Assembly: GCA_030526515.1 (NCBI GenBank)
Contig: JAUNCQ010000001.1
Span: 62,001-126,000 of the forward strand
DNA: 64,000 bases
Source: Coriobacteriia bacterium
Lineage (GTDB): Bacteria > Actinomycetota > Coriobacteriia > Coriobacteriales > Eggerthellaceae
Reading direction: 5' to 3'
The notes beneath the pieces are model-generated. The model was not told the DNA's origin. It saw nothing but the letters and a program-made list of their open reading frames with translations, and searched no databases. The first letter of the stretch is position 1; every line of letters starts with the position of its first letter. Positions 7,842 through 31,022 of the stretch are shown here, in pieces. The position numbers and the translations under genes are program-made.

Positions 7842-10709
7842 ATGACGGAAGAGCAGGAGTACCTGTTCGGCCTGGTCAAGGAAATCGACCAGATCTGCAG
7901 GAAGAACGACATCACGTACTACTTCATGGCGGGCACGCTCATCGGCGCCCTGCGGCACGAGGGGTTCCTGCCGTGGGACGACGACGCCGACATCTTCATG
8001 ACCAATGAGGAGTTCGCCAAGTTCGTGAAGGCCTGCGAAACCGACCTGCCGCCCCATCGCGCCCTGCGGGTGCCCGGCCGCGACCTGGACTACACCAACA
8101 ACTTCCCCCGCTACGTGTCCACCCAGACCACGGCCATCCACTCCACCCAGGTGCTGGGGGAGGGCGACGTGTGCGGCGACGTGATCGACATCTTCGTCCT
8201 GGACCCCATTGCCGACGGGCAGGAGGCCATTGACGCCTACACCCACGACCTGATGGTCTACTCCGACGTGCTGTCCGCGTCCGCCTGCTACGCCCGCCGC
8301 TACGGCATTCCCTCCGCTGACGTGGAGGAGGCCCTGCGCCTGGACGCCGAGCGGGGCCGCAAGTACACCTGCGACTACTACGAGTCCCGTCTGGCCAGTT
8401 ACTTCAGCGACCAGGGCCAGAACTTCGCCGCGCGCTGGGGCGGCCTGATCCTGATCTATCCTCGCTGGATGTTCGGGGAAACCATCGAGTGCACCTTCGA
8501 AGGGGAGCGCTTCCTGGCGCCCAGGCACTTCAACGAGTACCTGCGCCAGCACTACGGCGACGAGTGGACCAACCTGCCGCCCCATGCGGAGCGTGTGTCC
8601 CATGACGCCGCCTACTCCCTGCGCATCCCGTACCAGGAGGCGCTGGAGTTCTACCAGCCGCCCTTCGACCACGCGCAGCTGCGGGACCAGATGCAGCAGC
8701 GCTCCGTGGCGGAGTGCGACTACGCCCCCGAGTCCTACCGTCAGGAGGACGCCCACCAGAACGTGGCCGGCTGGGTGGCGCGGCTGGAGTCCCAGCAGCT
8801 CATCGATGCCGACGCCGAAGCTTTCGCCCAGGCCCTGGAGCGCCGCGACGGCGTGGCGCTGCTGCCCTTCGTGGAGGGGCTTATCAAGTGGCAGCTGCAC
8901 CGTGACGTCATCGGCCGCGAGGACTGGCGCGGCGCCTACCGCATGTTCAACCCCTTCCTGGGCAGCGCTTCCGACGAGCAGCGCGCGGCCCTGCTGCTGG
9001 CCCTCATCTGGACCGAGCGCATTGGCTGGGCCCGCCGCATGGTGCAGGTCATCCGCCACAACAACGGCCAGCTGACGGAGCTGGAGGCCGAGGTCGACCG
9101 TATGCTGACCACCTACGCCCAGGCCACGGACCACTATTGGCTGGGCGAAAAGGAGCAGGCCCTGGCCCTGGCGGACCAGCTGCTGGCCCAGTATCCGACC
9201 AACGGCTCCTTCATCAAGCTGCGCATGCGCTGCCTGGCGGAGCTGCGGGGCATCGACGACCCGGCGTTCCTGCAGACCCTGGCCCATGGCGAGTCCGTGC
9301 TGCCCGGTGACGGCGTGTTCATGAAGTACCGGGCCGACGTGCTGGATGCCGCAGGCCAGGCTGACCAGGCCCGCGACCTGTACGAGCATTGCGTGGACTG
9401 CACCAACGACGGCATGGTCCATCTGGACGTGAAGAAGAAGGCGGGCTTCATCCCCACCTGGATCCGGGAGGAGTTCTTCGAGGGCGCGGCGGTGAGCCTG
9501 GGCAACGTGGTGAGCCAGGACGAAGGCGGCGACGATGACGACGAGCCGCTGCAGGTGGAGCCCAATGCCTCGGAGCTGAAGCAGCGCCTGTTCGACCTGT
9601 TGTGCACCCTGGCCAAGGTCTGCGATGACAACGGCATAGAGTACTTCCTGTCCGCCCCGTTGGCCCATGCCCTGGCGCACTTCGGCCAGCTGCCCGGCAA
9701 CTCCAACCGCTACTACCTGCTGCTGAAGGCACCTCAGATGGAGCGCCTGGTGCAGGTGCTGGGGGAGCAGCTGCCGGAGGGCCTGGACTTCGAGTTCATG
9801 ACCAACTCCGACTACCTGGGCGAGCCGACCCTGTACCTGTACGACACCGCTACCACGCTGTATCGCAAGAACGTGCGCTTCCGCCGCAAGCACTGCAGCC
9901 TGTTCGTCATGGCCCGCATGCTCAACAGCGTGTCCTACGCCCGCATGAACACGGCCCACTTCAAGGCGTACCAGACCCGCTGCGGCCTGGACGTGGAGTG
10001 GAAGGACGACCAGGAGGAGCGCGCCCGGGAGTTCCTGCAGCGCCGCGCCGATCACACCGTGCCCCAGCTGGGCCAGGTGCAGTTCAAGGCGCGCCTTGAC
10101 CGCTTCGACGCGGAGTCCCCACGCCTCTATATTGACGCCAGCGGCGGACGAAAGTTCCGCGCCGACGTGTTCGCCGGCATCCAGCGCCTGGAGTTCCAGG
10201 GCCGCAGCCTGAGCGTTCCTGCGGATCTGGATCGCTATACCGCCGGTGCTGCCAAGGTGAATCCTGTCTACCATGACGAGCCGGTGATTCCGGTGGTGGC
10301 GGTCACGTCGCTGACGGTTCCCTGGGCCCAGGTGGCCGCGGGTGCCCAGTTCGACCCGGATCTGCCGGTGCAGCGTCGCAAGCTGCTGCAGGAGCGCGCC
10401 GAGTGGTCGGTGGTGCGCGATCGCTTCGATGCGACCTTCGCCCAGGTGAAGCGCGCCGTGGCCCTGAAGGACCTGAGCCTGGACCTGCTTCCGCTGCAGG
10501 ACCAGGTGGTGGCCGCGTCCCAGGCGGGCGATCATACCCAGGTGCTCCAGCTGCTGAGGGGGTACCGCGCCTTCGCCCGCCAGAACGCCGCGTTCGTTGA
10601 CCTGAACGTCAGCCAGCCCCTGTACGATGCCTTCCTGGCGGCGCTGGCCGCGGTGCCCAACCCGGTGAACGAGCAGATCCTCCAGGACATCCAGGAACGC
10701 AGCGCCTAG
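7842..10709 (+). CDS. Second tandem LicD-family phosphotransferase
   Basis: 955 residues, paralogous along its length to the protein at 4014-6998. The N-terminal LicD domain carries WDDDADI (W45) and DVIDIFVLDPIADG. A TPR-like middle (about 415-545, with repeated A..LA..LL...P pattern) is followed by a degenerate LicD-like copy (about 580-700: LFDLLCTLAKVCDDNGIEYFLS), in which the DDD motif is not recognisable. It probably transfers a CDP-activated group to an envelope glycan. The Shine-Dalgarno is AAGGAGA. Its stop codon overlaps the stop of the convergent regulator gene inside the palindrome CCTAGG, so no separate terminator fits between them. Confidence 0.8.
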   Translation: MTEEQEYLFGLVKEIDQICRKNDITYYFMAGTLIGALRHEGFLPWDDDADIFMTNEEFAKFVKACETDLPPHRALRVPGRDLDYTNNFPRYVSTQTTAIHSTQVLGEGDVCGDVIDIFVLDPIADGQEAIDAYTHDLMVYSDVLSASACYARRYGIPSADVEEALRLDAERGRKYTCDYYESRLASYFSDQGQNFAARWGGLILIYPRWMFGETIECTFEGERFLAPRHFNEYLRQHYGDEWTNLPPHAERVSHDAAYSLRIPYQEALEFYQPPFDHAQLRDQMQQRSVAECDYAPESYRQEDAHQNVAGWVARLESQQLIDADAEAFAQALERRDGVALLPFVEGLIKWQLHRDVIGREDWRGAYRMFNPFLGSASDEQRAALLLALIWTERIGWARRMVQVIRHNNGQLTELEAEVDRMLTTYAQATDHYWLGEKEQALALADQLLAQYPTNGSFIKLRMRCLAELRGIDDPAFLQTLAHGESVLPGDGVFMKYRADVLDAAGQADQARDLYEHCVDCTNDGMVHLDVKKKAGFIPTWIREEFFEGAAVSLGNVVSQDEGGDDDDEPLQVEPNASELKQRLFDLLCTLAKVCDDNGIEYFLSAPLAHALAHFGQLPGNSNRYYLLLKAPQMERLVQVLGEQLPEGLDFEFMTNSDYLGEPTLYLYDTATTLYRKNVRFRRKHCSLFVMARMLNSVSYARMNTAHFKAYQTRCGLDVEWKDDQEERAREFLQRRADHTVPQLGQVQFKARLDRFDAESPRLYIDASGGRKFRADVFAGIQRLEFQGRSLSVPADLDRYTAGAAKVNPVYHDEPVIPVVAVTSLTVPWAQVAAGAQFDPDLPVQRRKLLQERAEWSVVRDRFDATFAQVKRAVALKDLSLDLLPLQDQVVAASQAGDHTQVLQLLRGYRAFARQNAAFVDLNVSQPLYDAFLAALAAVPNPVNEQILQDIQERSA

Positions 10710-11692: not shown

Positions 11693-11715
11693 GAGAAGCT
11701 CCATTTGGTGAATCT

Positions 11716-11735
11716 GATTCAACAATCGTTGAATC
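11716..11735. promoter_or_regulatory. Palindromic operator candidate for the XRE-cytidylyltransferase regulator
   Basis: Perfect inverted repeat GATTCAAC-AATC-GTTGAATC, 24-43 bases upstream of the regulator start. Related half-sites lie nearby: GGTGAATC at 11708-11715, GATTCAAC at 11816-11823 and GGTGAATG at 11837-11844. The last falls where the -35 box of the rightward gene should be. This layout fits autoregulation plus control of 11919. Confidence 0.6.
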
Positions 11736-11859
11736 TCATGTTAACGGTTTGTAATGCGCTTTAGGACGAAAGCCAAGGTAAAGCCGCAAATTAGCGAATC
11801 TTTCGCCCAAATGCAGATTCAACATTTGCCACGAATGGTGAATGCGGGGGAATCACTGG

Positions 11860-11865: not shown

Positions 11866-11918
11866 TACCGTGGCCCAAGGAAGCGGGCCGACCGATCTTA
11901 TGAAAGGAGTGGCTCGCG

Positions 11919-12653
11919 GTGAACGTGGCCCTTGTCCTTGCTGGTGGCGTAGGCGCCCGCGTGGGTGCGAACGTGCCGAAGCAGTACATCGAGGTACTGG
12001 GAAAGCCCATCATCATCCATACCCTGGAAAAGTTCCAGGAGTCCCCGGAAATCGACGCCATCGAGGTGGTCTGCGCTCCCGAGTGGCATGACCACGTGGT
12101 CGCGCTGGGGGAGCAGTGGGGCATCACGAAGCTGCGCTGGGTCGTGGACGGCGGTAGCATCTGCCAGGAGTCCATCCGCAACGGCCTCTTTGCCCTGGAG
12201 GGCAAGATTGACCCCCAGGACCTGGTCATGGTGCACATGAGCGTGAGCCCGCTGATCAACCAGGAAACCATCCACAACGCGCTGGCGGTGGCGGCTGAGA
12301 AGGGCAACTCCTTCGCCGACACGCCCATCGTGTTCTGCATGGCCAAGAAGACCGGCCCCGGCTACTGCGACGAAAACGCCTACAAGGAGCATTACGTGCA
12401 GCTGAACATGCCCTGGACCATGGGCTTTGGCGACTACCTTTCCCTGTACCAGGAGGCGTACGAAAAGGGCATCGGCACCGACCTGATCAGCTACACCCCC
12501 AGCCTCATGTTCGACCTGGGGCACCGGGTGTACACCTTCCCCGACAACGAGGCCAACAAGCAGAAGATCGCCTACAAGGCCGACCTTGACTTCTTCGAGG
12601 GCTACCTGCTGGTCCAGGAGCGCAAGCGCGCACAGCAGGACGAAAACCAGTAA
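11919..12653 (+). CDS. IspD/TarI-like cytidylyltransferase heading a polyol-activation operon
   Basis: 244 residues with an intact CTP loop (LAGGVGARVGANVPKQY). The metal motif HDA.RP is replaced by HMSVSP (residues 106-111). The GTG start has AAAGGAG nine bases upstream. It is followed at 43 bases by an FGGY kinase and then by a MIP-type channel, which suggests uptake of a small polyol, phosphorylation, and activation to a CDP-polyol for polymer synthesis. The chemistry is inferred from family and order. The lost Asp/Arg leaves open that it acts on an unusual substrate or is inactive. It is about as long as, and paralogous to, the protein at 7008-7733. Confidence 0.75.
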   Translation: MNVALVLAGGVGARVGANVPKQYIEVLGKPIIIHTLEKFQESPEIDAIEVVCAPEWHDHVVALGEQWGITKLRWVVDGGSICQESIRNGLFALEGKIDPQDLVMVHMSVSPLINQETIHNALAVAAEKGNSFADTPIVFCMAKKTGPGYCDENAYKEHYVQLNMPWTMGFGDYLSLYQEAYEKGIGTDLISYTPSLMFDLGHRVYTFPDNEANKQKIAYKADLDFFEGYLLVQERKRAQQDENQ

Positions 12654-12695
12654 ACGCACGATTTGACTGACCGCAACTACAGAGAGGAACGAATC

Positions 12696-14261
12696 GTGAG
12701 CAAGTACATCGCAAGCATCGACGCCGGCACCATGGGCGTGCGCTGCGCCATCTTCGACTTCCAGGGCAACCAGGTGGCCGGGGACTACTACGAGACCCCG
12801 ACGGTCTATCCGAAGCCGGGCTGGGTGGAGCAGGACGCCAATGACATCGTGCACCTGGCCTACAAGGCCGTGCGCGGCGCCATCACCACCGGCGGCATCG
12901 ACGCTGCGGAGATCGCGGGCCTGTCCTTCACCAACCAGCGCACCACCATGGTGCCCATTGACGAGGACGGCAACTTCCTGACCAACATGCTGCTGTGGCA
13001 GGACCTGCGCGGCGCCGAGATCTTCGACTGGGCCCGCGAGCGCCTGGCCGAGCACGGCATGACCGAGATGGACCTGTACAACCGCTGCGGCCATCCGCTG
13101 GGCGCCGTGCAGTGCGGCACCCGCGCCTTCTGGCTGAAGGAGAAGATGCCGGAGGTCTACGCCAAGACCTACAAGATGCTGACTCCCCACGCCATCCTGG
13201 CCCATGCCTTCGGCGCGCCGGGCTACCCGGAGGAAAACTCCGACAACAACTGGTGGCTGGTGACCAAGTGCGACAGCTTCGAGTTCGACCCCGAGCTGTG
13301 CGAAATCTTCGGCATGGACATTGACAAGTACCCGGAGAGCTTTGCCCCCGGCACCCGCATCGGCGAGGTGACCCCCGAGGTGGCGGCCAAGACCGGCCTG
13401 GTGGCTGGCACCCCGCTGTTCGTGGGCTCCGGCGACCAGCAGTGCGGCGCCGCCGGCGTGGGCAACTCCGGCGAGCTCGGCCTGGGCAGCGTGTGCCTGG
13501 GCACCGCCGGCCTGTGCATCGGCTACTCCGCCACCCCGGTCCGCGACCCCAACGGCAAGTGCCATGTGCTGGGCCACCCCTCCGGCGGCTACACCATGGA
13601 GGGCCACGCATCCGCTGCGGCCTCTTCCTTCCGCTGGCTGCGCAATGCCATCTCCCAGCTGGAGATGACCACCGCGGACCTGTCCGGCATCGACGTGTAC
13701 GACATCATGACCGCCACCGCCGCCCAGAGCCCGGTGGGCGCCAAGGGCACCGTGTTCCTGCCCTGGCTGGCCGGCGCTGCCTGCCCCCACTACGACGAAA
13801 ACGCCCGCGGTGCCCTGATCGGCATGACCCTGGGCACCACCAAGGGCGACATGCTGCGGGCTGCCATGGAGGGCATCTGCTTCGAGATGCGCGAGATGCT
13901 GACCGCCCTGAAGGCCGCCGGCTTCAGCGACTTCGAGCGCCTGCGCGTCACCGGCGGTGCCGCCCACTCCCATCTGTGGAACCAGATCCAGGCCAACATC
14001 TACGGCTGCCGTGTGGAGACCGTCGAGGTCGGTGAGGCAACCGCCCTGGGCGCTGCCATGATCGCAGCCGTGGGCGCCGGCGTGTACAAGGACCTGGCCG
14101 AGGCATCTGCCAACATGGTCCACGTGAAGGACGTCTACGACCCCGACCCGGAGACCATGGCCAAGTACGATCAGGTATTCGAGGTGTGGCAGTCCTGCTA
14201 CGAGGGCCTGGCCAAGGAAGCCTACCCGAAGATCTGCGCCTTCCAGGCGGATCAGGCGTAG
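12696..14261 (+). CDS. FGGY-family polyol/sugar kinase (glycerol kinase-like)
   Basis: 521 residues, typical for FGGY kinases. The N-terminal phosphate-binding segment reads IDAGTMGVRCAIFD. YPKPGWVEQD and TNQRTT resemble glycerol kinase, but the DAGT motif and the GSGDQQCGAAGVG loop are closer to xylulokinase-like members. The C-terminal ATP-binding part shows VTGGAAHS..W.QIQANI. It phosphorylates a polyol or sugar; glycerol, erythritol, ribitol or arabitol are all possible. I prefer the GTG at 12696, preceded by AGAGAGGA at seven bases, over an in-frame ATG-less extension upstream. It lies between a cytidylyltransferase and a MIP channel, which suggests its product feeds CDP-polyol synthesis. 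Confidence 0.8.
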   Translation: MSKYIASIDAGTMGVRCAIFDFQGNQVAGDYYETPTVYPKPGWVEQDANDIVHLAYKAVRGAITTGGIDAAEIAGLSFTNQRTTMVPIDEDGNFLTNMLLWQDLRGAEIFDWARERLAEHGMTEMDLYNRCGHPLGAVQCGTRAFWLKEKMPEVYAKTYKMLTPHAILAHAFGAPGYPEENSDNNWWLVTKCDSFEFDPELCEIFGMDIDKYPESFAPGTRIGEVTPEVAAKTGLVAGTPLFVGSGDQQCGAAGVGNSGELGLGSVCLGTAGLCIGYSATPVRDPNGKCHVLGHPSGGYTMEGHASAAASSFRWLRNAISQLEMTTADLSGIDVYDIMTATAAQSPVGAKGTVFLPWLAGAACPHYDENARGALIGMTLGTTKGDMLRAAMEGICFEMREMLTALKAAGFSDFERLRVTGGAAHSHLWNQIQANIYGCRVETVEVGEATALGAAMIAAVGAGVYKDLAEASANMVHVKDVYDPDPETMAKYDQVFEVWQSCYEGLAKEAYPKICAFQADQA

Positions 14262-14435: not shown

Positions 14436-15149
14436 ATGACACCGTATATCTGTGAGTTCCTGGGAACCATGATCCTGATCATGCTGGGTGACGGCGTGGT
14501 CTGCAACGTGAACCTGAAGAAGTCCAACATGTTCGGCGGCGGCGTGGTCGTGATCACCCTGGCCTGGGGCCTGGCCGTCCTGCTGCCGGCCTTCATCTTC
14601 GGCGCTGCATCCGGCGCCCACTTCAACCCGGCGCTGACCCTGGCCCTGGCCGTTGACGGCAGCTTCGCCTGGGACATGGTCCCCGGCTACATCGTGGCCC
14701 AGTTCGCCGGCGCCTTCGTGGGCGGCTGCATCGTGTGGGGCATGTACAAGCTGCACCTGGACGCCGAGGAGAACGTGGACATGAAGCGCGGCGTGTTCTG
14801 CACCGCCCCGTCCATCCGCAACATCCCCATGAACATCTTCGCCGAGGCCGTGGGCACCTTCATGCTGGTGTTCGCCATCAAGGGCATCGGCCAGGTGACC
14901 GGCATCGCCGGCGGCCTGAACTACCTGCTGGTGTTCGCCATCATCGTGTCCGTGGGCATGTCCTTCGGCGGCCTGACCGGCTACGCCATCAACCCCGCCC
15001 GTGACCTGGGCCCGCGCCTGGCCCACACCCTGCTGCCCATCAAGGGCAAGGGCTCCAGCGACTGGGCCTACGCCGTGGTTCCGCTGGTCGGCCCCATCGT
15101 GGGCGCCCTGGTCGCCGTGCTGCTGTACGGCGCCGTGTTCCCGGCATAG
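14436..15149 (+). CDS. MIP-family channel (glycerol/polyol facilitator, GlpF-like)
   Basis: 237 residues with six predicted membrane segments and both half-helix motifs: HFNPALTLA in the first half and INPARDLGPR in the second. The Asp after the second NPA-R is the glycerol-facilitator signature rather than the water-channel type. It passes small polyols through the cytoplasmic membrane. The start ATG has AAGGAAG upstream. It probably supplies the substrate of the FGGY kinase just upstream. The 174 base gap between them contains a stable hairpin, so channel expression may be lower than kinase expression or separately driven. Confidence 0.88.
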   Translation: MTPYICEFLGTMILIMLGDGVVCNVNLKKSNMFGGGVVVITLAWGLAVLLPAFIFGAASGAHFNPALTLALAVDGSFAWDMVPGYIVAQFAGAFVGGCIVWGMYKLHLDAEENVDMKRGVFCTAPSIRNIPMNIFAEAVGTFMLVFAIKGIGQVTGIAGGLNYLLVFAIIVSVGMSFGGLTGYAINPARDLGPRLAHTLLPIKGKGSSDWAYAVVPLVGPIVGALVAVLLYGAVFPA

Positions 15150-15175
15150 CCGTCGGACGACGCATCGAGCTTTCA

Positions 15176-15203
15176 GGGGCTGCTACGGCGGCCCCTTTTT
15201 CTT
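15176..15203 (+). terminator. Intrinsic terminator after the channel gene
   Basis: GGGGCTGC-TACG-GCGGCCCC followed by TTTTTCTTT. It is immediately followed by GGGCGAAAGCCC (15205-15216), one copy of the dispersed word, which could itself fold as a small GAAA tetraloop hairpin. Confidence 0.8.
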
Positions 15204-15263
15204 TGGGCGAAAGCCCCCGTAGCCAGCGTGCAGGCGTGACCGCGGGGACTTTGTCCGCTATCC

Positions 15264-15269
15264 TATATT
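15264..15269 (+). promoter_or_regulatory. Possible -10 box (TATATT)
   Basis: TATATT lies 37 bases before the ATG at 15307, after a terminator. No clear -35 box is visible. Confidence 0.25.
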
Positions 15270-15306
15270 GGTTAAGCACTTGCAACTTTCGACCCGAAGG
15301 CCTGCC

Positions 15307-18510: not shown

Positions 18511-18517
18511 GGGAGAA

Positions 18518-18531
18518 GGGCGATTTCGCCC
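18518..18531. repeat. Short palindrome GGGCGA-TT-TCGCCC
   Basis: It lies just after the stop of the glycerophosphotransferase fusion and contains one complete TTTCGCCC copy of the dispersed word. Confidence 0.5.
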
Positions 18532-18554
18532 GCAAGCTGAACCAGAACATGAAA

Positions 18555-18582
18555 AAGGAGGCTGCCGTGGGGCAGCCTCCTT
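18555..18582. terminator. Bidirectional terminator between convergent genes
   Basis: AAGGAGGCTGCC-GTGG-GGCAGCCTCCTT, a 12 bp perfect stem with a four base loop. The A run on its left side gives a U run for the leftward gene ending at 18621. Confidence 0.85.
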
Positions 18583-18620
18583 GCGTTGCGAAGAAGCTCG
18601 CGTCTATGGGCGAAAAGCCC

Positions 18621-21600: not shown

Positions 21601-21992
21601 ATCTTGGCCTTGGTGCAGGTGGCTGCCTTGTACGTGGCCAGCTTGCTGGTGCGCGGCACCGTCACGGTGCACTTGTAGGTCCTGCTGCCGACCTTTGCCC
21701 TGATGGTGGCCTTGCCGGCCTTCTTGGCGGTCAGCTTTGCGGATGCCGCGGTGGTCTTGGTGACCGTGACCACGGCCTTGTTGGACGAAGTCCACGTCAC
21801 CTTCTTGGTGCCGCGGTTCTTGACCGTCAGCGTGGCGGTCTTCTTGTAGTGCACGATGGCGGACTTCTTGCTGAGCGTGGGTGCTGCCGCATACGCGTTC
21901 GCGGTGGTCACGGCCAGGGCCGTGCCGCAGGCGACCACGAGTGCCAGCAGCGCCGTCAGCAGCGTCCTGCGTGCTGATGCGGTTCTTGGCAT
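18621..21992 (-). CDS. Secreted glycosidase-like protein with Big_2 and C-terminal Ig-like repeats
   Basis: 1123 residues. A signal peptide (LLTALLALVVACGTALA) is followed by a Big_2-type domain (about 35-110) and a Cys-pair region (about 120-210: CGHCKK, CSYNKKH, CKWCGK). The central domain resembles the DUF5722 / (beta/alpha)8 glycosidase type, with AIVLGNEVDYSS and VWLNESGCSS as likely acid/base and nucleophile Glu motifs. Three C-terminal Ig-like repeats follow, each with DWV.L/IYK..... and LPAGEY. It is probably surface-bound or released. The start has GGAGG seven bases upstream. It is a paralogue of 24216-27299 and is co-directional with the phosphatase at 22038 (45 base gap). The DUF5722 assignment is from memory and moderate. 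Confidence 0.7.
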   Translation of the reverse strand: MPRTASARRTLLTALLALVVACGTALAVTTANAYAAAPTLSKKSAIVHYKKTATLTVKNRGTKKVTWTSSNKAVVTVTKTTAASAKLTAKKAGKATIRAKVGSRTYKCTVTVPRTSKLATYKAATCTKAKMMRYYCGHCKKYFYYYSGSPVSSAHKWTKTKTVAPTCKAKGYTLYTCSYNKKHTVKKYYKDPVDHSYVDGACKWCGKADPGPLGGSTTTVTATATAITVNPGTYASAPAGTKVNVLMTTADNALKQDAKKYLSNDFDAVDKVAGTKVAQYTVGESKPAAFDRFDATGYDRAYNKFYLVTTDGILVKGPFYVTDAPCTTDQTAQDPTSKKGLFTAELKRATDLGCGVVMTNIEYDRAILPYGQVPSDDAIAFESNGKTFYFSAGYFDFFDRYIKNANDRGMSVGLTVLSKVDLSSCSPEIFYGAGTYGNANHVAVNTSNEIGRDCWIAFMEFLGQRYSGAEGSQGAIDAIVLGNEVDYSSCWNQVVANDQTISLEAYMEEYGRSLRLAQTALGKYRANMPVCMSLTHQWALSAVESGVPGLHAGGANYFAPKDMVDYLAKTSAAEGDFNWGLTPHCYGSSLANSELYGNDTIKAGTTGGRDWGMNGNMNTTGLITFSNLELLQSYLEQPALLHKGKVRPVWLNESGCSSLTNEVAHQKKQAAYLAVSYYKIAQLDCVKAFAYYRDIDVEQEAVNGMRTGLLNTDGSHKIAYDVYKYIDTNLSFEYTDELLPQIVYNDYVDGQRVKVTDIPTWAEALNPFHTSWNWPAVWDESKIKVRTVVKETYEVSADKTEYIEGEDILVTATGMTDKDWVGIYKKGEVPGQYLQAIYWNYFQNGTPWNIKTETAGDGSAYRSDWAAVKDLPAGEYTLILCKDDGYDIATTANITVKRDPTKPTGTLALSKSTYYPGEPVRVTATSEGATDWVGLYKKGETAGGGQDSAWWYYVNGTNLGIEHTSGYEYVMQHQLFNWTRMDMAALPAGEYVVYLLANDGYEVLASAEFTVEANDAIKTFTTNKDVYEAGEPLMITPTNTTRKDWVALFRESDTPADFAAGDPSLWYAYTAELNGTAFDLTDTEHGVYQGQGDPQKLTSGNWRVVLYLDDGYTISSERMIHVN

Positions 21993-22037
21993 CGTCTTTC
22001 CTCCCTCTTTCCTGTATTTCCTTTCGTCCGCTCCTCC

Positions 22038-24026
22038 TTAGCGGGCGTGGGGCACGACGTAGCTGGCGGAGGGCAGCCACCTTCCGTTGGCGAAGTCGCG
22101 TCCCTGTACCAGGGTGCAGTCATCGTAGACGGTGACGTAGTACCCTTCGGAACCCTTCTTGTACGCGCCGGCCTGGTCCTGGGGATCCGCGTAGCTGGTC
22201 CACAGGTAGGCGGCGGAAGAGGTGTTGAGGATGGTCGGCAGGCCGTCCTGGCCGCTCGACCCGTCGTTGCGGGCATGCAGGTTGCCCGGAGAGTCCATGA
22301 TCCAGTGGCTGTGGCCGTTGAACAGGATGACCTGGGGGAACTGCTGCAGGACCTTGATCAGGCGGGCCCGGGAGCTGGAATCCACCACGTCGCCGGACTT
22401 GGCGTTCTCCACGCCGTCCCATCCCTGGCCCGGGAAGCTGCCGGCAATGGTGTTGTACAGCGACTGGTGCAGGTAGACGAAGATGGGCTTGCCGCCGGTG
22501 TCCTCCTGCGCGATGGTCAGCTGATCCTGGAGCCAGTTGGTCTGGTCAGTGCTCAGGTAGGCGTCCACGCCGTCTATGGGGTAGGTGTCGCTGCCCAGCA
22601 TGATGTGGTGCAGGCCGTCCAGCTTCACGGCGTACCAGGGGGAGTCCCCGTCGGGCTGGCCGAACTCGATCTGCTTGCCCTGGGACGCGTAGGTGCGGAA
22701 CAGGGCGCGGCTCTTGGCGGCTCCCTGCTCGTTGGCGTCGTGGCCGTAGTAGTCGTGGTTGCCCATGGCGAAGTACACGTCCGCGGCGCTCATGCCGTCC
22801 TGGGCCTCCACCATGTCGTAGAGCATCCGGTACTCGGCCTCGCGGCCGCGGTCGGCCATGTCGCCCACGATGATGGTCTTGCCGCCGGGGTTGACCTGGG
22901 CGGCGTCGGCCAGGGCCAGGGGCAGGTGCTCGTTTCCGTCATAGCCGGTGCGCCCCTCCTGGTTGACGTGGACGTCGCTCAGGATCTGGAAGCGGGCCAG
23001 GGGCGTTCCCGTGGGCGTGAAGCCGCTGTGTTCCGGCAGGGGGCAGGTCACGTAGCTGCGGGACAGCATGCCGCCTATGCGGGTGTGCACCCGCAGCGCG
23101 GTGGCGCCGGCGGGGATCAGCGTCTGCTCGGGGATGGCCAGGCTAACGGTGGTGCTGGTCGCGTGCTGCGGGGCCAGGGGAGCGTAGCCCTCCAGCGCGC
23201 CCTGGTCATTGGCCCACTGGACCACCACGTCGTTGCGGAAGGCTACCGTCACGGGATTGAGGGTGACGGTCACCAGGCCGCCGGCGGATCCGGTGCCCGG
23301 GTCGGTCAGGTCGTAGCGGGCGGAAACGGGCGCTGTTTCGTCCGTCAGCTGGGGTATGACTTGGTCCTTGGTCTGGTCGCAGGCCATGCAGGAGCGGCGC
23401 AGCAGGCCGTCGGCCTCATAGGTGGCCGGGGTCACGACCATGCCGTCATCCCACTGGTGGCCCAACGCCGCGGTGGCCTGCTTCTTCGTGTGCCTGCCGT
23501 TGCGGGTGCAGGTCCATACGTTGCAGCCGCCTTCGGTGCAGGTGGCCGCCTTGCTCTTGGACGGGGACGCCGCCCAAGCGTGGGCGTTGGCCACCGTGGC
23601 GGTGTAGACGCTGTAGTGCTTGCGGCACCTGTAGCACCAGTAGGTGAGCTTGCCGCGGGTGGAGCAGGTGCCCTTGACCTGCTTGGTCAGCTTGTACGAG
23701 GGGACGGTGACGGCGCAGCGGTAGCGCTTGCCCCGGTACGTGGCGGTGACGGTGGCCTTGCCGGCCTTCAGGCCGGACAGGCGCACGCTGCGATAGCTGA
23801 TCTTCTTGACGGTGACCCGGGACTTGGCGGATGTGGACCAGGTGACCTTGGCGGACGTGGGGATCCCCTTCAGGGTCAGGGTGGCGGTGGTCTTGTGGTG
23901 CAGCTCCAGGGAGCTGCGGTTCAGGACGGCCTTGGCCTGGGCGGGCGTGGCGGCGCACAGTGCCAGCAGCGTGGCGGCGGCCAGCGTCAGCAGGGCAGGG
24001 GCGATGTTCGCGCGGCAGGTTCGCAT
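22038..24026 (-). CDS. Secreted calcineurin-like metallophosphoesterase with Big_2 domain
   Basis: 662 residues. A signal peptide (LLTLAAATLLALCAATPAQA) leads to a Big_2-type domain and a Cys-pair region (CYRCRKH, CTRNGRH, CMACDQ) arranged as in the neighbour at 18621-21992. The C-terminal metallophosphatase domain shows the full motif series: SDVHV, VGDMADRG, GNHDYYG, YLHQS and FNGHSHW. It probably hydrolyses phosphoesters outside the membrane, perhaps on envelope polymers or nucleotides. The ATG at 24026 has GGAG upstream and begins a proper signal peptide. An upstream in-frame extension to 24131 lacks these. It is likely to share a promoter with the gene at 18621-21992. Confidence 0.8.
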   Translation of the reverse strand: MRTCRANIAPALLTLAAATLLALCAATPAQAKAVLNRSSLELHHKTTATLTLKGIPTSAKVTWSTSAKSRVTVKKISYRSVRLSGLKAGKATVTATYRGKRYRCAVTVPSYKLTKQVKGTCSTRGKLTYWCYRCRKHYSVYTATVANAHAWAASPSKSKAATCTEGGCNVWTCTRNGRHTKKQATAALGHQWDDGMVVTPATYEADGLLRRSCMACDQTKDQVIPQLTDETAPVSARYDLTDPGTGSAGGLVTVTLNPVTVAFRNDVVVQWANDQGALEGYAPLAPQHATSTTVSLAIPEQTLIPAGATALRVHTRIGGMLSRSYVTCPLPEHSGFTPTGTPLARFQILSDVHVNQEGRTGYDGNEHLPLALADAAQVNPGGKTIIVGDMADRGREAEYRMLYDMVEAQDGMSAADVYFAMGNHDYYGHDANEQGAAKSRALFRTYASQGKQIEFGQPDGDSPWYAVKLDGLHHIMLGSDTYPIDGVDAYLSTDQTNWLQDQLTIAQEDTGGKPIFVYLHQSLYNTIAGSFPGQGWDGVENAKSGDVVDSSSRARLIKVLQQFPQVILFNGHSHWIMDSPGNLHARNDGSSGQDGLPTILNTSSAAYLWTSYADPQDQAGAYKKGSEGYYVTVYDDCTLVQGRDFANGRWLPSASYVVPHAR

Positions 24027-24104
24027 GGTGCGGTGCTCCGATCGGGTTCTGGCCTGGTTCTGCCCCGTCGGCTGGGGCATTCCAAGGCATATTGTCTTCA
24101 AACC

Positions 24105-24112
24105 ATTATAAT
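24105..24112. promoter_or_regulatory. Overlapping divergent -10 boxes (TATAAT on both strands)
   Basis: Within the palindrome CCATTATAATGG (24103-24114), TATAAT reads rightwards at 24107-24112 and leftwards at 24105-24110. It is 79 bases from the leftward start (24026) and about 100 from the rightward start (24216). No good -35 boxes are visible. The rest of the 190 base gap shows nothing further. Confidence 0.45.
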
Positions 24113-24215
24113 GGTCGCTGCCTGGTTGCATTGTGCAAAAGTACCGGGCAGCATTAACGTTTGTATACGATTTGCGCAGTTGAGACGGCTTTTTGGCTGC
24201 GCTTCAGGAGGCAGG

Positions 24216-27200
24216 ATGCCCATGGATGCAAGTCGGACCCCGGCCCGGTGGGGCCTTGTCGCGGTGATGGTCGCCGTGCTGGCGGCCCTTTCGCCCTGGA
24301 TGGCTTCCGCCGCGTGGGCAGCCGACCCTGAGCCCTCGGTGGTGGTTTCCGTGGGCGAAGACCAGGTCCAGGTGACCGTTGACGGCGTGGGGGCAAGCGG
24401 CCAGGCCACGGTTCAGCGTTTCGACGCAAGCGAATACCACGCCAAGGACCCGCGGCGGGGCGTGAGCGCCCGCGCTGCCTCTCAGGGCGATGTGGTGGGC
24501 ACCTACCAGTGCGGCACCCGTCAGACCCTGACCGTGGACCGCTTCAAGGCCAGCGGCCAGGACACCCTGTACGCCAAGTACTACGTGGTCCAGGGGCAGA
24601 GGATCCTGGCGGGTCCCGTGTACGCCACCCAGGTGCCCGAGCGGCCGGCCGTCTGCCGGTTCCCGGGCAACATGAAGGGCCTGTTCGTGGAAAACGACCC
24701 TGCCAACCTGGCGATCGCCAAGGACCTGGGCTGCTCCAGCGTGACCCTGAACCTGCCCCTGAACGGGTTCATCCTTCCCAATGAGGACGAAGACGGCAAG
24801 CCGATCAGCCACGGCGCCGACGATGCCGTTCCCTTCGTCAGCAACGGCACCACCTACTGGTTCGGCAAGTCCGCCGTGGCCAGCTTCGACAACCTGGTCA
24901 AGACCTACTCCCAGGCCGGCATGGACGTGACCGTGGTGGTGCTGGCCTTGGGCAGCCCGGACTACGGCAGCTATCCCTTCGCCCTGACCTACGGCAAGGT
25001 GGCCGGCACCACGCTGGCCTTCAACACCGCCACGGAGGCGGGCGAAGGCTACTGGACCGCCGCCATGGAGTTCCTGGGCAGCCGCTACTCCCGCACCGCT
25101 GAGCGGGGCTTCGTCCAAAGCTACGTCATCGGCAACGAGATCGACCAGGCCCACTCCTGGTCGCGCATCACCAAGGACAACTCCCGGGCGTCGGTGGACG
25201 TCTACATGGAGGAGTACGCCCGCGGCCTGCGCATTGCCCATAACGCCCTGTCCAAGTACGCGTCCGGCGTCCGCGTGTGCATGCCGGTGTGCCACTACTG
25301 GAAGAAGGGCACCGGCGACCTGCACAACATGGTGAACTCCTATGCCGCCCGTGACCTGATGGATTGGCTGGTCAAGGTCGAAACCGCCCGCGGCAACTAC
25401 GACTGGGGCCTGGCGCCGCATCCGTACGCCTGCAGCCTGACCCAGAGCTTCGTGGGCCACTTCGACAGCGGCAAGCTGCCCTACAGCAAGGCCTTCACGT
25501 ATCCCGTCAGCGGCGACGTGGACCAGTCGCCCATGCTGACCCTGACCAACCTGGAGCTGCTGCAGCAGTACCTGGAGCGTCCCGAGTGCCGCTTCGACGG
25601 CCGGGTCCGCAGCGTGTACCTGACGGAGTCGGGCGTGAGCTCCATGGGCGCCGGCTACGACCTGCCCTTCCCGGACGCGGGTTGGACCACCGACGACAAC
25701 TTCGACCGCCAGGCCGCCTGGCTGGCCCAGTTCTACTACCGCGCGGCGCACCTGAGCTGCGTGAAGCAGTTCAACTACTACCGGCTGGTGGACAACCCCG
25801 GCGAGCTGCAGGTGAGCGCCCCCACGGCCCTGGGCCTGATCACCACGTCGGGCCAGAAGAAGCCCTCCTACGAACTGTACAAGTACCTGGACACGGAGCT
25901 CTCCCTTGAGGTGGCGGACCCCTACCTGCCCGCCATCACGTTCTGGAAGAACGCTCGCACCTCCAAGGAGGTGGAGTTCAGCGTGGCCTCCGGGCGCGTG
26001 AAGTCCTATGCGGACGTGATGGACTTCACCACCAACGGCACCTTCCCCTGGGAAGAGGCCTGGGACGAAGGCAAGTTCATGACCCGCAGCATCACCGCGG
26101 AGCCCGAGCCCGACCTGGAGGTGGAGTACGAAAGGGTCGCCGCCCAGGTCCCTATCATGGTGCGGGCCACGGCGCCTGACGGCTACCAGGTGCTCCTGTG
26201 CTACGCGCGGGACGAAGCCTGCGCGCGTCCCCTGTGCTCCTTCACTATCGGCGCCCAGGGCCGTGCGTCGGGAACCCTGCAGATGCTGAACAAGGGCTCC
26301 GTTTCCTACGGCGACTACCTGGTGGCCCTGACCTGCAAGGAGGACGGCGCCACCCGCGTGGTGAAGACCGTCCCGCTGTCCGTGGGCGGCCCGTACCTGG
26401 AGGGGGTCCCAGAGTCCCTGGATCTGACCGCGGGTCAGGCCGGCGTGCGACTTCCGGTCACGGCCCTGCAGGGCACCCAGGCCCATTTCGCCAGCTTCGA
26501 TGAGTCCGTGGCGACCGTCACCGCCGACGGCGTGGTGTCCGCCCGCAAGGTCGGCACGGCCACCATCGAGGTGACGGCCCGTGATTACAGCGGTACGGTG
26601 CTGAAGCGCCTGTCCGTGAACGTGACGGTGGGGGAGGGCTCCCATTCCTACGAGCTCACGGGCGTCAAGGCGGCGTCGGCATCCTCCAGCGGTCAGCTGA
26701 GCTACCGGTGCTCCTACTGCGATGACGTCAAGGCTCCCACGGTGGTGAACCCCGTGGTGGCCGCCGCGGTGCACTCCGGCACCACCAAGGCCGTGGTCTC
26801 CTGGAACGCCGTGAAGGGCGCCACGTCCTACGCGGTGTACGGCGGCCGTGCCGGCAAGACCCTGAAGAAGGTGAAGGGCGTTTCCGCCGGGGCCGCCCGC
26901 AAGGTCACCGCAAGCGGGCTGCGCAAGGGCGCGGTCTACGTCTACCAGGTGCGGGCCTACCTGGGCAGCGCCCGCATTGCCACCAGCTGCCAGGCCTTCG
27001 TGATTGCCGGCGGCAAGACCGCCAAGGCGGGGTCGGTCACGTCCGTGACGGCCAAGACCGCGTCCCTGGCCCTGGCCAAGGGCCAGAGCAAGCGCCTGGC
27101 CAAGCCGGTGGTGAAGGTGAGCGGCCCGGGCAAGCAGCTTGCAGGCTACTGCAGCGCGTACCGCTATGCCACCAGCAACGGCAAGGTGGCGGTGGTTTCG

Positions 27201-27299
27201 TCCTCCGGCACGGTGACCGCCAAGGGCGCGGGCAGCTGCTACGTGTACGTGATCGCGAAGAACGGCAAGAGCGCCAAGACGAAGGTGATGGTGAGGTAG
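24216..27299 (+). CDS. Secreted glycosidase-like protein with Big_2 and repeat C-terminus
   Basis: 1027 residues. Signal peptide (WGLVAVMVAVLAALSPWMASAAWA), then a short Ig-like region and a central domain homologous to 18621-21992 with YVIGNEIDQAHSW and VYLTESGVSS as probable catalytic Glu motifs. A Big_2-type domain follows (ASFDESVATVTADGVVSARKVGTA spans the core), then a CSYC pair, a fibronectin-III-like segment and a final Big_2-like segment. AGGAGG lies four bases before the ATG at 24216 and ten before an alternative ATG at 24222. It is probably bound to or released from the cell surface, and its glycan target is unknown. It is transcribed divergently from its paralogue block and coupled to 27302. 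Confidence 0.7.
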   Translation: MPMDASRTPARWGLVAVMVAVLAALSPWMASAAWAADPEPSVVVSVGEDQVQVTVDGVGASGQATVQRFDASEYHAKDPRRGVSARAASQGDVVGTYQCGTRQTLTVDRFKASGQDTLYAKYYVVQGQRILAGPVYATQVPERPAVCRFPGNMKGLFVENDPANLAIAKDLGCSSVTLNLPLNGFILPNEDEDGKPISHGADDAVPFVSNGTTYWFGKSAVASFDNLVKTYSQAGMDVTVVVLALGSPDYGSYPFALTYGKVAGTTLAFNTATEAGEGYWTAAMEFLGSRYSRTAERGFVQSYVIGNEIDQAHSWSRITKDNSRASVDVYMEEYARGLRIAHNALSKYASGVRVCMPVCHYWKKGTGDLHNMVNSYAARDLMDWLVKVETARGNYDWGLAPHPYACSLTQSFVGHFDSGKLPYSKAFTYPVSGDVDQSPMLTLTNLELLQQYLERPECRFDGRVRSVYLTESGVSSMGAGYDLPFPDAGWTTDDNFDRQAAWLAQFYYRAAHLSCVKQFNYYRLVDNPGELQVSAPTALGLITTSGQKKPSYELYKYLDTELSLEVADPYLPAITFWKNARTSKEVEFSVASGRVKSYADVMDFTTNGTFPWEEAWDEGKFMTRSITAEPEPDLEVEYERVAAQVPIMVRATAPDGYQVLLCYARDEACARPLCSFTIGAQGRASGTLQMLNKGSVSYGDYLVALTCKEDGATRVVKTVPLSVGGPYLEGVPESLDLTAGQAGVRLPVTALQGTQAHFASFDESVATVTADGVVSARKVGTATIEVTARDYSGTVLKRLSVNVTVGEGSHSYELTGVKAASASSSGQLSYRCSYCDDVKAPTVVNPVVAAAVHSGTTKAVVSWNAVKGATSYAVYGGRAGKTLKKVKGVSAGAARKVTASGLRKGAVYVYQVRAYLGSARIATSCQAFVIAGGKTAKAGSVTSVTAKTASLALAKGQSKRLAKPVVKVSGPGKQLAGYCSAYRYATSNGKVAVVSSSGTVTAKGAGSCYVYVIAKNGKSAKTKVMVR

Positions 27300-27301
27300 C
27301 C

Positions 27302-28066
27302 ATGGGCAAGATGATGCGACGTGCGGCCGCTGCGGCGGCCCTGGGACTGGCGGCGGCCTGCGTGGCCCCCGCTGCGGCGCTGGCCTACGCGCCGGCGGAT
27401 GACCTGGTCCACGAGCGGGCCGCCCATGGGGACTTCGCCCCGCTGCTGGACGGCACGGACTACCATGCCTTCGTGAAGCCGGCCACGCCCAGCGCCAACG
27501 GCGGCCTGTACACCCGCTGCCGGGTGTGCGGGTTCGAGGAGCGGGAGAAGGTCATCTACCGGCCCAAGACGGTGAGGCTGTCCGCCTCTGCGTACACCTA
27601 CAGCGGTGCCGCGCGCAAGCCGTCGGTGACGGTGCTCAACTCCGCGGGCAAGGCGCTTCCCCGTGAAGCCTACGAGCTGTCCTACGCCCCCGGTCGCAAG
27701 CTGGTGGGGAGCTACGGCGTGACCGTGACCTTCAAGGGGGACTGGGCCGGCACCATGCACGCCAACTTCACGATCAAGCCCAAGGCCACGACCCTGCGGT
27801 CCCTGAAGGCAGCCAAGGGCGGATTCGCGGCCACGTGGTCCCGAGCGGTGTCCCAGGCCGACGGCTACCAGGTCCGCTACAGCCGCTACTCCAGCATGAA
27901 GGGGTACAAGAAGGTCACGGTGGCCGGCCGCACCAGCGCGTCCAAGAAGGTCACGGGCCTGGCGTCGGGCAAGCGCTATTACGTGCAGGTGCGGGTCTAT
28001 AAGAAGGCCGGCGGCGCCACCTTTGTCAGCGCCTGGAGCCCCAAGAAGTCCGTGGTTGCCAGGTAG
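27302..28066 (+). CDS. Small secreted surface protein with Cys pair and fibronectin-III-like domain
   Basis: 254 residues. Signal peptide (AAAAALGLAAACVAPAAALA), a CRVCGFEE pair near residue 72, an immunoglobulin-like MBG-type domain (about 90-160: VRLSASAYTYSGAARKPSV...G.YGVTVTFKG) and a fibronectin-III-like domain (about 165-250: DGYQVRYS....YVQVRVYKK). The start is two bases after the previous stop, so it is translationally coupled to the glycosidase-like protein and is probably its partner or an accessory adhesin. No catalytic motif is seen. Confidence 0.75.
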   Translation: MGKMMRRAAAAAALGLAAACVAPAAALAYAPADDLVHERAAHGDFAPLLDGTDYHAFVKPATPSANGGLYTRCRVCGFEEREKVIYRPKTVRLSASAYTYSGAARKPSVTVLNSAGKALPREAYELSYAPGRKLVGSYGVTVTFKGDWAGTMHANFTIKPKATTLRSLKAAKGGFAATWSRAVSQADGYQVRYSRYSSMKGYKKVTVAGRTSASKKVTGLASGKRYYVQVRVYKKAGGATFVSAWSPKKSVVAR

Positions 28067-28095
28067 CGTCGCGGAGGGGGCTTTCGCCCACCTGG
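28059..28095. other. Weak inverted repeat across convergent gene ends
   Basis: CCAGGT (28059) and ACCTGG (28090) flank TTTCGCCC (28082-28089) between the stops of two convergent genes. It may serve as a shared weak terminator. Confidence 0.3.
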
Positions 28096-28096
28096 G

Positions 28097-29050
28097 CTAG
28101 TCGCGCTGCTTCACCAGTGCGGTGAAGATGGCAATGTCCTCCTGGCGGACGATCTTGATGTTGTTGTGGTTGCCCTCGCAGAAGTTCAGGTCGTAGCCCA
28201 GGCTGCTCATGAGCAGGCCCACGCAGCTTTCCCGCAGGGGGTGGTTCTGGCGGCGGGCCTTGGCGAAGACCTCGTCAAGGGTGTCCAGGGTGTAGGCGTC
28301 GGGGGACTGCAGGTCCACCACGCGGCTGCGGTCGATGTAGGTGGTCTTCTGGCCGTCAACCAGGAACTGCACGTTGTCCATCTTGGACTCGCCGATGATG
28401 GCGTGGCCCTTCGCCTTGCAGGTGGTCAGCAGCTTGGAGATCATATCCTCCGTCACGAAGGGGCGGGTGGATTCCTGCAGCACCACCAGGTCGCGGTTGG
28501 TGAATCCGTCGTCGCGCAGGCGGCGCAGGCCGTTTAGGACCGAGCGGATGCCGGAGTCGCCGGCGGGGATGATGCCCCGCAGCTTCGTGATGCCGCTCTT
28601 CTGGGCGTACCCCAGCAGGATGGATTCCCACTGGTCAAGGCAGACTATGTAGATGTCGTCGATGAGCGGATGGTTCTGGTACACGTCCAGGCAGTAGCTG
28701 ATGACCGGCTTGCCCAGCACGTTGATGAACTGGTTGGGGATGTTCTGCAGGTTGCGGGTGGACTTGCCGCCGGCCAGGATGACGGCGGCGGTGCGGCCGT
28801 GACCCACCGGGCGGCTGGCGGATCCTTCTTCGGCGGGCGAAAGCACCGGCCGCGATCCCGTCAGCAGGGACTCGATGCTGGTGTCCAGGGCGCGGGACAG
28901 GTCCAGCAGCTTGGACAGGGGGATGTCGTTTTCGCCCGCTTCGATCTTGGCGATGGTGGAGCGGGACTTGTAGCCCAGGGCATCCGCCAGGTCCTGCTGG
29001 GACATGCCGACCTCCAGCCGGCGACGCTTGATGTTTTGGGCGATGTTCAT
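28097..29050 (-). CDS. Second XRE-type regulator fused to a cytidylyltransferase-like domain
   Basis: 317 residues, collinear with the protein at 10706-11692. XRE helix-turn-helix (about 5-63: RRLEVGMSQQDLADALGYKSRSTIAKIEAGE), linker, then an IspD/TarI-like domain with ILAGGKSTR, PNQF (Lys of PKQ replaced by Asn), QESTRP and NNIKIVRQEDI near the end. It probably binds a nucleotide or CDP-alcohol and controls transcription. The ATG at 29050 has GGGAGG eight bases upstream. A longer frame to 29365 runs back through the promoter of the divergent gene and is rejected. It is divergent from the LicC-LicA type gene at 29238, mirroring the arrangement around 11700. Confidence 0.8.
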   Translation of the reverse strand: MNIAQNIKRRRLEVGMSQQDLADALGYKSRSTIAKIEAGENDIPLSKLLDLSRALDTSIESLLTGSRPVLSPAEEGSASRPVGHGRTAAVILAGGKSTRNLQNIPNQFINVLGKPVISYCLDVYQNHPLIDDIYIVCLDQWESILLGYAQKSGITKLRGIIPAGDSGIRSVLNGLRRLRDDGFTNRDLVVLQESTRPFVTEDMISKLLTTCKAKGHAIIGESKMDNVQFLVDGQKTTYIDRSRVVDLQSPDAYTLDTLDEVFAKARRQNHPLRESCVGLLMSSLGYDLNFCEGNHNNIKIVRQEDIAIFTALVKQRD

Positions 29051-29101
29051 GGCCGAATCCTCCCTATGAGCGTGGTTTTCGCCCAAAAGTGTAGCGAAAG
29101 C

Positions 29102-29137
29102 GTTCCTGTGAATCAACATGACGTGCCAAACAGGAAC
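29102..29137. promoter_or_regulatory. Inverted-repeat operator candidate for the second XRE fusion
   Basis: GTTCCTGT (29102-29109) and ACAGGAAC (29130-29137) form a perfect 8 bp inverted repeat with a 20 base spacer. Further GGAAC half-sites occur at 29147-29151 and 29174-29178 on the way to the divergent choline-kinase gene. Confidence 0.5.
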
Positions 29138-29163
29138 ACCTTGTGGGGAACGCCGCCATAACG

Positions 29164-29192
29164 TTGCCTCAGGGGAACCAACCTGTCTTAAT
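29164..29192 (+). promoter_or_regulatory. Possible promoter TTGCCT-17-CTTAAT
   Basis: A -35-like TTGCCT (29164-29169) and a -10-like CTTAAT (29187-29192) flank the GGAAC half-site at 29174, 46 bases before the start at 29238. The elements are weak, and it is offered because of its position. Confidence 0.3.
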
Positions 29193-29237
29193 AGCCTCAG
29201 CGCAATTCCTGAAATCCCCTCCGAAAGGAAGAACAAC

Positions 29238-31022
29238 ATGGTCACTTTCCGCGAACTTGAGGCAATGAAGCTCATCATGAAGGGCGCCTCCTTCGAGTCC
29301 CTGCCGTACCACGTCTTCGAGGACGCTGCCGAGTACGACGCCACCATCGCCTCCCTGGAGGCCAAGGGCTACATCGCCGACGGCAAGGTCACCGAGATGG
29401 GCCTGAACGACATCGAGCCGTACCGCGTCAAGAACGCCATCGTCATGGCTGCAGGCGGCGGTGACATCTCCTCCAAGTCCGTGTACTCCCTGCCCAAGGG
29501 CCTGTACGTGAAGGACGGCGAGACCCTGATCGAGCGTCAGATCCGCCAGCTGAAGGAGGCCGGCATCACCGACATCACCGTGGTCGTGGGCTACAAGCAG
29601 GAGATGTACTTCTACCTGGTCGAGAAGTGCGGCGTTGAGCTGGCCGTGAACGTTGCTCCCACCAAGGGCAACATCCTGTCCCTGAACGCCGTGGGCGTGA
29701 CCCTGGACAGCACCTACATCTGCAACTGCGACAACTACTTCGTGGACAACCCCTTCAGCGCCTACGAGCACAGCGCCTTCCATGCAACCCAGTTCAAGGA
29801 GGACACCTCCAAGGAGCTGGTGGTCCGCACCAACCACGGCGGCCGTATCCTGGAGGTCTTCACCACCAACGAGCCCGGCGAGTGCATCTACGGCCATGCC
29901 TACATGGACCCCGCCTTCAGCTACCGCTTCAGCAAGCTGCTGGCCGAGCAGATCGACACCTTCCGCGTCGATATGCTGTTCTGGGAGGAGTTCGTTTCCC
30001 GCAACATCGACGACCTGGACATGTTCGCCCGCTCCTACAGCTCCGACTTCCTGCTGGAGTTCGACTCCGTCCAGGAGATCCAGAACATCGACGGCCTGTT
30101 CATGGACAACGTGTCCGCCAAGGTCAACGAGAAGATCTGCTCCATCCTGGGCTGCAACCCGGATGAGATCATGGACATCCAGATCCTGCAGAAGGGCCTG
30201 ACCAACATCCTGTTCACCTTCGTGGTGAAGGGCACCAAGTACATCTTCCGCTACCCGGGCGACTTCAGCCAGGCATTCATCTACCGTGACCGCGAGGTCC
30301 GCGCCCAGCAGCTGGCTGCCAAGGCCGGTTCCGACACCACCTACGTCTACATTGACGAGTCCGGCTGCAAGATGAGCGAGTTCCGCGCTGACTGCCACGA
30401 CCTGTCCGACGTGTACTACAAGGACATCGACTTCATGTGCGAGGTCGCCAAGAGCATCCGCCGCATGCATGACGAGTCCGCCGACATGGAGGATTGGGAG
30501 CAGTTCTACAACAACCCCATGGAGTCCTCCGACGCCCTGATGCGCCTGGCCTCCCAGATGAAGGGCAACCTGTTCGAGCGCTTCGCCAAGGACCACGAGC
30601 GCATCAACAAGCTGTATGCCTACACCGAGAAGGACGGCTTCGAGAAGCGCATGTGCCACAACGACATCAACGCCGATAACGTCCTGGTCACCGACACCAC
30701 CATGGACATCATCGACTGGGAGTTCGCCGGCTACAACGACCCGGCCTATGACTTCGGCCGCGTGATCGGCGACTACGACTGCGACGATCCGGATGTTGCC
30801 ACCATCGTGTCCGCCTACCTGGGCCACGAGTGCTCCGAGATCGAGCGCCTGCACTTCCTGGCATACGCCGCCATCCACAACTACTACTACTTCAACTGGG
30901 CGCTGTACGTTGAGTCCATCGGCAACTCCAGCCGCGACTGGATGATCTTCTTCTACCGTCAGGTCCAGAAGTTCATGAACTACTGCCTGCCCCGCTACGA
31001 GCAGATCTACGGCGAGATCTAA
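29238..31022 (+). CDS. Phosphocholine cytidylyltransferase fused to choline kinase (LicC-LicA type)
   Basis: 594 residues. A short N-terminal winged-helix-like segment (about 1-60) precedes a LicC-like nucleotidyltransferase (about 68-300: AIVMAAGGG, LPKGL, ITVVVGY, CDNYF). A LicA/choline-kinase domain (about 330-590) follows, with GLTNILF, the Brenner-type CHNDINADNVL and IIDWEFAGYNDPAYDFG. Together these would phosphorylate choline (or a related alcohol) and activate it as CDP-choline, the donor for LicD transferases such as those at 4014 and 7842. The start has AAAGGA eight bases upstream. No choline transporter of LicB type is obvious in the window. Its divergent neighbour is the second XRE fusion, a likely regulator. 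Confidence 0.85.
   Translation: MVTFRELEAMKLIMKGASFESLPYHVFEDAAEYDATIASLEAKGYIADGKVTEMGLNDIEPYRVKNAIVMAAGGGDISSKSVYSLPKGLYVKDGETLIERQIRQLKEAGITDITVVVGYKQEMYFYLVEKCGVELAVNVAPTKGNILSLNAVGVTLDSTYICNCDNYFVDNPFSAYEHSAFHATQFKEDTSKELVVRTNHGGRILEVFTTNEPGECIYGHAYMDPAFSYRFSKLLAEQIDTFRVDMLFWEEFVSRNIDDLDMFARSYSSDFLLEFDSVQEIQNIDGLFMDNVSAKVNEKICSILGCNPDEIMDIQILQKGLTNILFTFVVKGTKYIFRYPGDFSQAFIYRDREVRAQQLAAKAGSDTTYVYIDESGCKMSEFRADCHDLSDVYYKDIDFMCEVAKSIRRMHDESADMEDWEQFYNNPMESSDALMRLASQMKGNLFERFAKDHERINKLYAYTEKDGFEKRMCHNDINADNVLVTDTTMDIIDWEFAGYNDPAYDFGRVIGDYDCDDPDVATIVSAYLGHECSEIERLHFLAYAAIHNYYYFNWALYVESIGNSSRDWMIFFYRQVQKFMNYCLPRYEQIYGEI

Follow-up and report, generated by a model that had tools for sequence, protein, structure and literature searches.

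Two proteins encoded in the 64,000-nucleotide stretch of DNA from a gut-type bacterium analysed here (the window), XRE1 and XRE2, join an XRE-family helix-turn-helix (HTH) domain to a domain related to the cytidylyltransferases IspD and TarI, and each is encoded divergently from genes that activate precursors for an envelope polymer. Sequence comparison makes it probable that the two are paralogous local transcription regulators, in which a catalytically dead cytidylyltransferase serves as the effector domain and senses a CDP-alcohol or its substrates. Table 1 gives the positions of the features discussed.

Table 1. Genes and candidate regulatory sites in the window.
Feature	Position	Strand	Description	Basis or remarks
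Second IspD-like enzyme	7002-7733	(+)	Paralogue without XRE domain, upstream of LicD	
LicD	7842-10709	(+)	LicD-family phosphotransferase	End adjoins XRE1
XRE1	10706-11692	(-)	XRE HTH aa 7-61, disordered linker, IspD-like domain aa 99-325; catalytic residues substituted	Pfam HTH_3/IspD, alignment, residue table
Site A, XRE1	11707-11734		Operator-like, GGTGAAT-n3-ATTCAAC-n4-GTTGAAT	Adjoins XRE1 start codon; conserved in G094; only perfect match in genome
Site B, XRE1	11817-11843		Operator-like, ATTCAAC...GGTGAAT	Overlaps putative -35 of 11919 operon; ATTCAAC...GTTGAAC in G094
CyT	11919-12653	(+)	IspD/TarI-like cytidylyltransferase	IspD E 1.1e-21; K27 and R20 kept, Met for D106, Ser for R109
FGGY kinase	12663-14261	(+)	FGGY-family polyol kinase, glycerol-kinase-like	
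Aquaglyceroporin	14436-15149	(+)	MIP family	
XRE2	28097-29050	(-)	XRE HTH aa 7-60, linker aa 65-85, IspD-like domain aa 88-314; catalytic residues substituted	
XRE2 site	29100-29139		Operator-like region, GCGTTCCTGTGAATCAACATGA...CAGGAACAC	Conserved in G094; half-site also in G066; single match in genome
GGAACC element	29174-29179		Conserved element	Between putative LicCA -35 (TTGCCT 29164) and -10 (TTAATA 29188)
LicCA	29238-31022	(+)	LicC-type cytidylyltransferase fused to LicA-type choline kinase	N-terminal extension of about 65 aa

The Pfam model HTH_3 (cut-off 23) matches XRE1 with 47.6 bits (E 1.7e-12) and XRE2 with 54.6 bits (E 1.2e-14), which places both N-terminal domains in the XRE family. 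The IspD model (PF01128, cut-off 27) matches with 89.3 bits (E 4.2e-25) and 74.6 bits (E 1.3e-20), respectively. These matches are full-length, covering positions 1-220 of the 221 in the profile for XRE1 and 2-220 for XRE2, and the two proteins, encoded by 10709-11692 and 28100-29050 of the minus strand, align end to end with 46% identity, in agreement with the initial annotation of two collinear proteins that each carry an XRE HTH and an entire IspD/TarI-like domain. Both start codons have good ribosome-binding sites, GGAG for XRE1 (11692) and GGGAGGA for XRE2 (29050). Scores against the NCBIfam IspD equivalog models fall far below cut-off, and the NCBIfam model of an anaerobic benzoate regulator matches the HTH of XRE2.

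XRE1 is encoded divergently from the operon that comprises CyT (11919), the FGGY kinase (12663) and the aquaglyceroporin (14436), and XRE2 from LicCA (29238). LicCA finds its best PDB match in LicC (1jyk, E 2.3e-24) and also matches Choline_kinase (E 4.3e-16), so that both divergent partners first noted, an IspD-like gene and a fusion of LicC and choline kinase, are recovered. The surroundings hold many LicD and CDP-glycerol glycerophosphotransferase domains and resemble a cluster for a polyol-phosphate envelope polymer. The N-terminal extension of LicCA (29238-29440, before the LicC domain) is common to its closest relatives. It appears winged-helix-like by eye and matched no Pfam family; it could represent a second HTH-enzyme fusion at the XRE2 locus. 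Genes for glycosyltransferases/glycerophosphotransferases and for large surface proteins, some 13 kb in all (15150-28090), separate the aquaglyceroporin from XRE2 in the window. In the congener G094, XRE2 directly follows the aquaglyceroporin gene (14275 to 14362 of L039), so either the two regulator units were once neighbours or a block was inserted. Elsewhere in the window, the product of positions 46933-48945 combines the middle and C-terminal domains of a Mur-ligase-like protein with BspA-type leucine-rich repeats, and ATP-grasp sugar-transfer genes adjoin it.

Residues strictly conserved in IspD are G18, R20, K27, G82, D106, R109 and K213, according to a review (PMC11770629). K27 contacts the alpha-phosphate of CTP, R157 and K213 contact the alcohol part, with R157 a contact for CDP-ME, and most triphosphate contacts are gone in the CDP-ME complex (PMC11770629). 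Three of the seven strictly conserved positions are changed in the fusions, as all seven fusion proteins in our residue table have G18S, K27N and D106E; all seven also have Gln at 105 and Asn at 21. Each keeps R20, S88, R109, R157 and K213, and six keep G82. Among 49 non-fused relatives, G18 and R20 are present in every one and K27 and K213 in 48 each. The IspD-like domain of XRE1 and XRE2 has most likely lost catalysis. Since G18 and K27 are lost and R157 and K213 are kept, binding of a product fits better than turnover of CTP. Values of dN/dS are about 0.27-0.28 for XRE1 and 0.14-0.15 for XRE2 (0.14 in its IspD-like part), compared to 0.08-0.16 for neighbouring enzymes; XRE2 is similar to these and XRE1 evolves faster. 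Judged by these substitution patterns, the changed domain is a pseudoenzyme under purifying selection and not a decaying one.

The clade of CyT enzymes, which includes the products of 7002-7733 and 11919-12653, has a pattern of its own. D106 is replaced by Phe, Met or Tyr and R109 by Gly, Ser or Ala in 12 of 12 members, while K27 and K213 are kept. This suggests an altered acceptor or metal site, and with D106 and R109 absent the exact substrate of CyT is not to be assumed.

An AlphaFold model of XRE2, computed from a 44-row alignment of related sequences, has a mean pLDDT of 92.3; the alignment of the seven fusions alone gave 56. It consists of the HTH (residues 1-64), modelled at high confidence, a loose or disordered linker, and the IspD domain. 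The best PDB matches are IspD and TarI structures, including complexes with CTP and CDP-ribitol, and TM-scores normalised to these targets are mostly 0.83-0.90, as for a member of the IspD fold. IspD is a dimer, in which an arm of one subunit completes the site of its partner. Hairpin strands 228-239 of the XRE2 model appear to correspond to this arm, which makes a dimer presenting two HTH domains likely.

Five of the 138 family genomes searched, representing four genera, encode the XRE-IspD fusion. G000 and G094, of the same genus, carry two copies each and G066, G101 and G127 one each, for a total of seven; in the G127 copy the contig breaks off within the HTH. Searches of 398 genomes of the class and 396 of the phylum gave no fusion from outside the family. 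A query with a single protein against a wider contig collection matched only the congener and a distant IspD, a result that says little about other phyla. No fusion appeared in a viral collection, where one match covered the HTH part alone, or in a plasmid collection, where nearly all of the matches listed cover the IspD part alone.

A search for the architecture in which the divergent neighbour was tabulated, as first proposed, gave a divided result. A CyT-LicCA pair lies beside the fusion in G066, G101 and G127, but only in G066 is the fusion divergent from CyT, with LicCA following; in G101 and G127 the genes are co-directional, in the order fusion, CyT, LicCA. Divergence is therefore no fixed feature, as two genera have regulator and enzyme genes head to tail. 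The conserved neighbourhood expected of relatives did appear: cytidylyltransferase/LicCA genes accompany the fusion in four genera, and it is this association, not the divergent layout, that is conserved. LicCA proteins at fusion loci belong to a distinct group of seven members with 56-100% full-length identity, versus about 31-38% for other LicCA proteins of the family. Five of the seven occur with a fusion. G043 has a LicCA-CyT pair without one, which means that the pathway can do without the regulator, and the seventh member, in G029, is on a short, 4-kb contig with transposase-like sequence that does not allow presence of the fusion to be judged. On that contig (L112, C116), we read transposase-like reading frames as flanking the CyT-LicCA pair on both sides.

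In a maximum-likelihood tree of IspD domains, all fusions form one clade with support of 100/100, and the neighbouring CyT enzymes form a separate clade with support of 100/99. The phylogeny indicates that the fusion is of single origin, with duplication afterwards. The same separation of well-supported clades leads us to reject an origin of each regulator domain as a copy of the enzyme encoded beside it. From the initial annotation of an enzyme domain turned sensor, what survives is a non-catalytic, sensor-like module, with G18S, K27N and D106E invariant; its derivation from the adjacent enzyme does not.

Inverted repeats are present in both gaps, as first described. Perfect palindromes are singly borderline, with 5 of 60 and 3 of 60 shuffles equally good, but recurring half-sites are far above chance and conserved in the congener. 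The half-site patterns were picked after inspecting the window, and only their recurrence across species should carry weight when the following counts are read: GKTGAAY occurs five times in the XRE1-CyT gap (0.13 expected, 0 of 500 shuffles), mostly in sites A and B, and GTTCCY four times in the XRE2-LicCA gap (0.30 expected, 0 of 500 shuffles), inside GCGTTCCTGTGAATCAACATGA...CAGGAACAC. In the corresponding XRE1-CyT gap of G094, GKTGAAY occurs four times in aligned regions. The gap of G066, not used to define the pattern, has GTTCCY twice (0.13 expected), a count reached in 1 of 500 shuffles. No clear site was found in the regulator-enzyme gap of G101 and G127. The candidate sites of XRE1 and XRE2 differ despite nearly identical recognition helices, and the notion of one operator sequence common to both was abandoned, with GKTGAAY at one locus and GTTCCY at the other. 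A regulon beyond the two loci was also rejected, as each full site pattern is found perfect once in the genome, which argues that XRE1 and XRE2 are local regulators. A scan of both window gaps for consensus sigma-70 promoters found none; our reading of the sequence suggests GGTGAA-17-TATAAC as promoter of the CyT operon, its -35 overlapped by site B.

In the mechanism we propose, the XRE domain would bind the repeated half-sites of the intergenic region. The C-terminal IspD/TarI-type domain would turn over no substrate but retain a nucleotide/polyol-phosphate pocket, serving both as dimeriser, through the putative IspD arm, and as effector-binding domain. By analogy, the effector would be the level of a CDP-alcohol, our first choice, or that of its substrates; the CDP-alcohol is favoured because residues for the CTP triphosphate are altered and those on the alcohol side kept. 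Ligand in the pocket would change how the XRE domain binds the shared promoter region, with the regulator itself and the adjacent precursor-activation genes as outputs. Targets of XRE1 would be polyol uptake, kinase and CyT, and that of XRE2 would be LicCA. Repression with the CDP-alcohol as co-repressor is favoured over activation only tentatively, because no consensus promoter was called in the gaps. The idea that the CDP-alcohol pool is sensed by the regulator through its dead IspD pocket, and perhaps through association with the active enzyme as well, is likewise put forward tentatively.

A sensor of inducer type, in which binding of polyol phosphate or CTP releases the DNA and CyT and LicCA are made upon substrate build-up, is rather unlikely. 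It would make use of the polyol-contacting R157 and K213 and accord with polyol uptake and a kinase in the XRE1 operon, but the altered P-loop for the triphosphate (G18S, K27N) makes CTP a less likely ligand; nothing found tells polyol phosphate and CDP-polyol apart. We consider it improbable that XRE1 and XRE2 are trigger enzymes, at once active cytidylyltransferase and repressor. NadR is a precedent for an HTH with an active nucleotidyltransferase (PMC8027369), the modelled fold is intact, and R20, S88, R109, R157 and K213 persist; against this, every fusion has K27N, G18S and D106E, while G18 and K27 are retained in IspD-family relatives that these genomes also encode. Equally improbable is pairing with CyT, an IspD-type heterodimer in which level or occupancy of the free enzyme gates DNA binding, despite linkage of fusion and CyT in four of four genera and complementary patterns, with D106 and R109 missing from the CyT clade (12/12) and E106 and R109 kept by the regulators. 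The dimer arm that completes a partner's site would permit such pairing, but CyT-clade enzymes of fusion-free genomes show the same losses of D106 and R109. A dimerisation scaffold that binds no ligand would explain changed catalytic residues but is likewise improbable, as it has no need of fixed replacements or of invariant R20, S88, R109, R157 and K213.

The preferred reading, a dead cytidylyltransferase as effector domain, has partial parallels in known systems. BzdR of Azoarcus consists of an XRE HTH, a linker and a shikimate-kinase-like domain, and losing its enzyme activity contributed to its becoming a regulator (PMC3602430). XRE1 and XRE2 likewise connect an XRE DNA-binding domain through a linker to an effector domain of enzymatic origin, but this C-terminal domain is IspD-like, not shikimate-kinase-like, and is associated with envelope-precursor genes instead of benzoate degradation. 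NadR of Salmonella combines an HTH with an active nucleotidyltransferase and controls its own pathway (PMC8027369). An HTH fused to a nucleotidyltransferase-type domain is common to both, as is control of the own pathway, which for XRE1 and XRE2 is proposed; NadR, however, is active and adenylyl-specific, whereas XRE1 and XRE2 have the IspD fold with key catalytic residues replaced, and neither an NMN adenylyltransferase nor a ribosylnicotinamide kinase domain was found in them. They share with IspD and TarI the full-length PF01128 match and the fold, and differ by replacement of G18, K27 and D106 and by the N-terminal XRE domain. XRE1 and XRE2 would then be of neither BzdR nor NadR type but IspD-fold, enzyme-derived regulators, with ligand sensing proposed by functional analogy.

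A literature search, confined to papers accessible without subscription, found no published XRE-IspD cytidylyltransferase architecture and no cytidylyltransferase-derived transcription sensor of a CDP-activated envelope precursor. Little is known about how bacteria adjust their supply of CDP-activated alcohols (glycerol, ribitol, choline) to the demand of envelope polymers. A regulator derived from the activating enzyme, its catalytic residues replaced in a fixed way, would be a ready-made and directly testable sensor, and would carry the BzdR-type conversion of an enzyme into a regulator over to a new fold and a new pathway.
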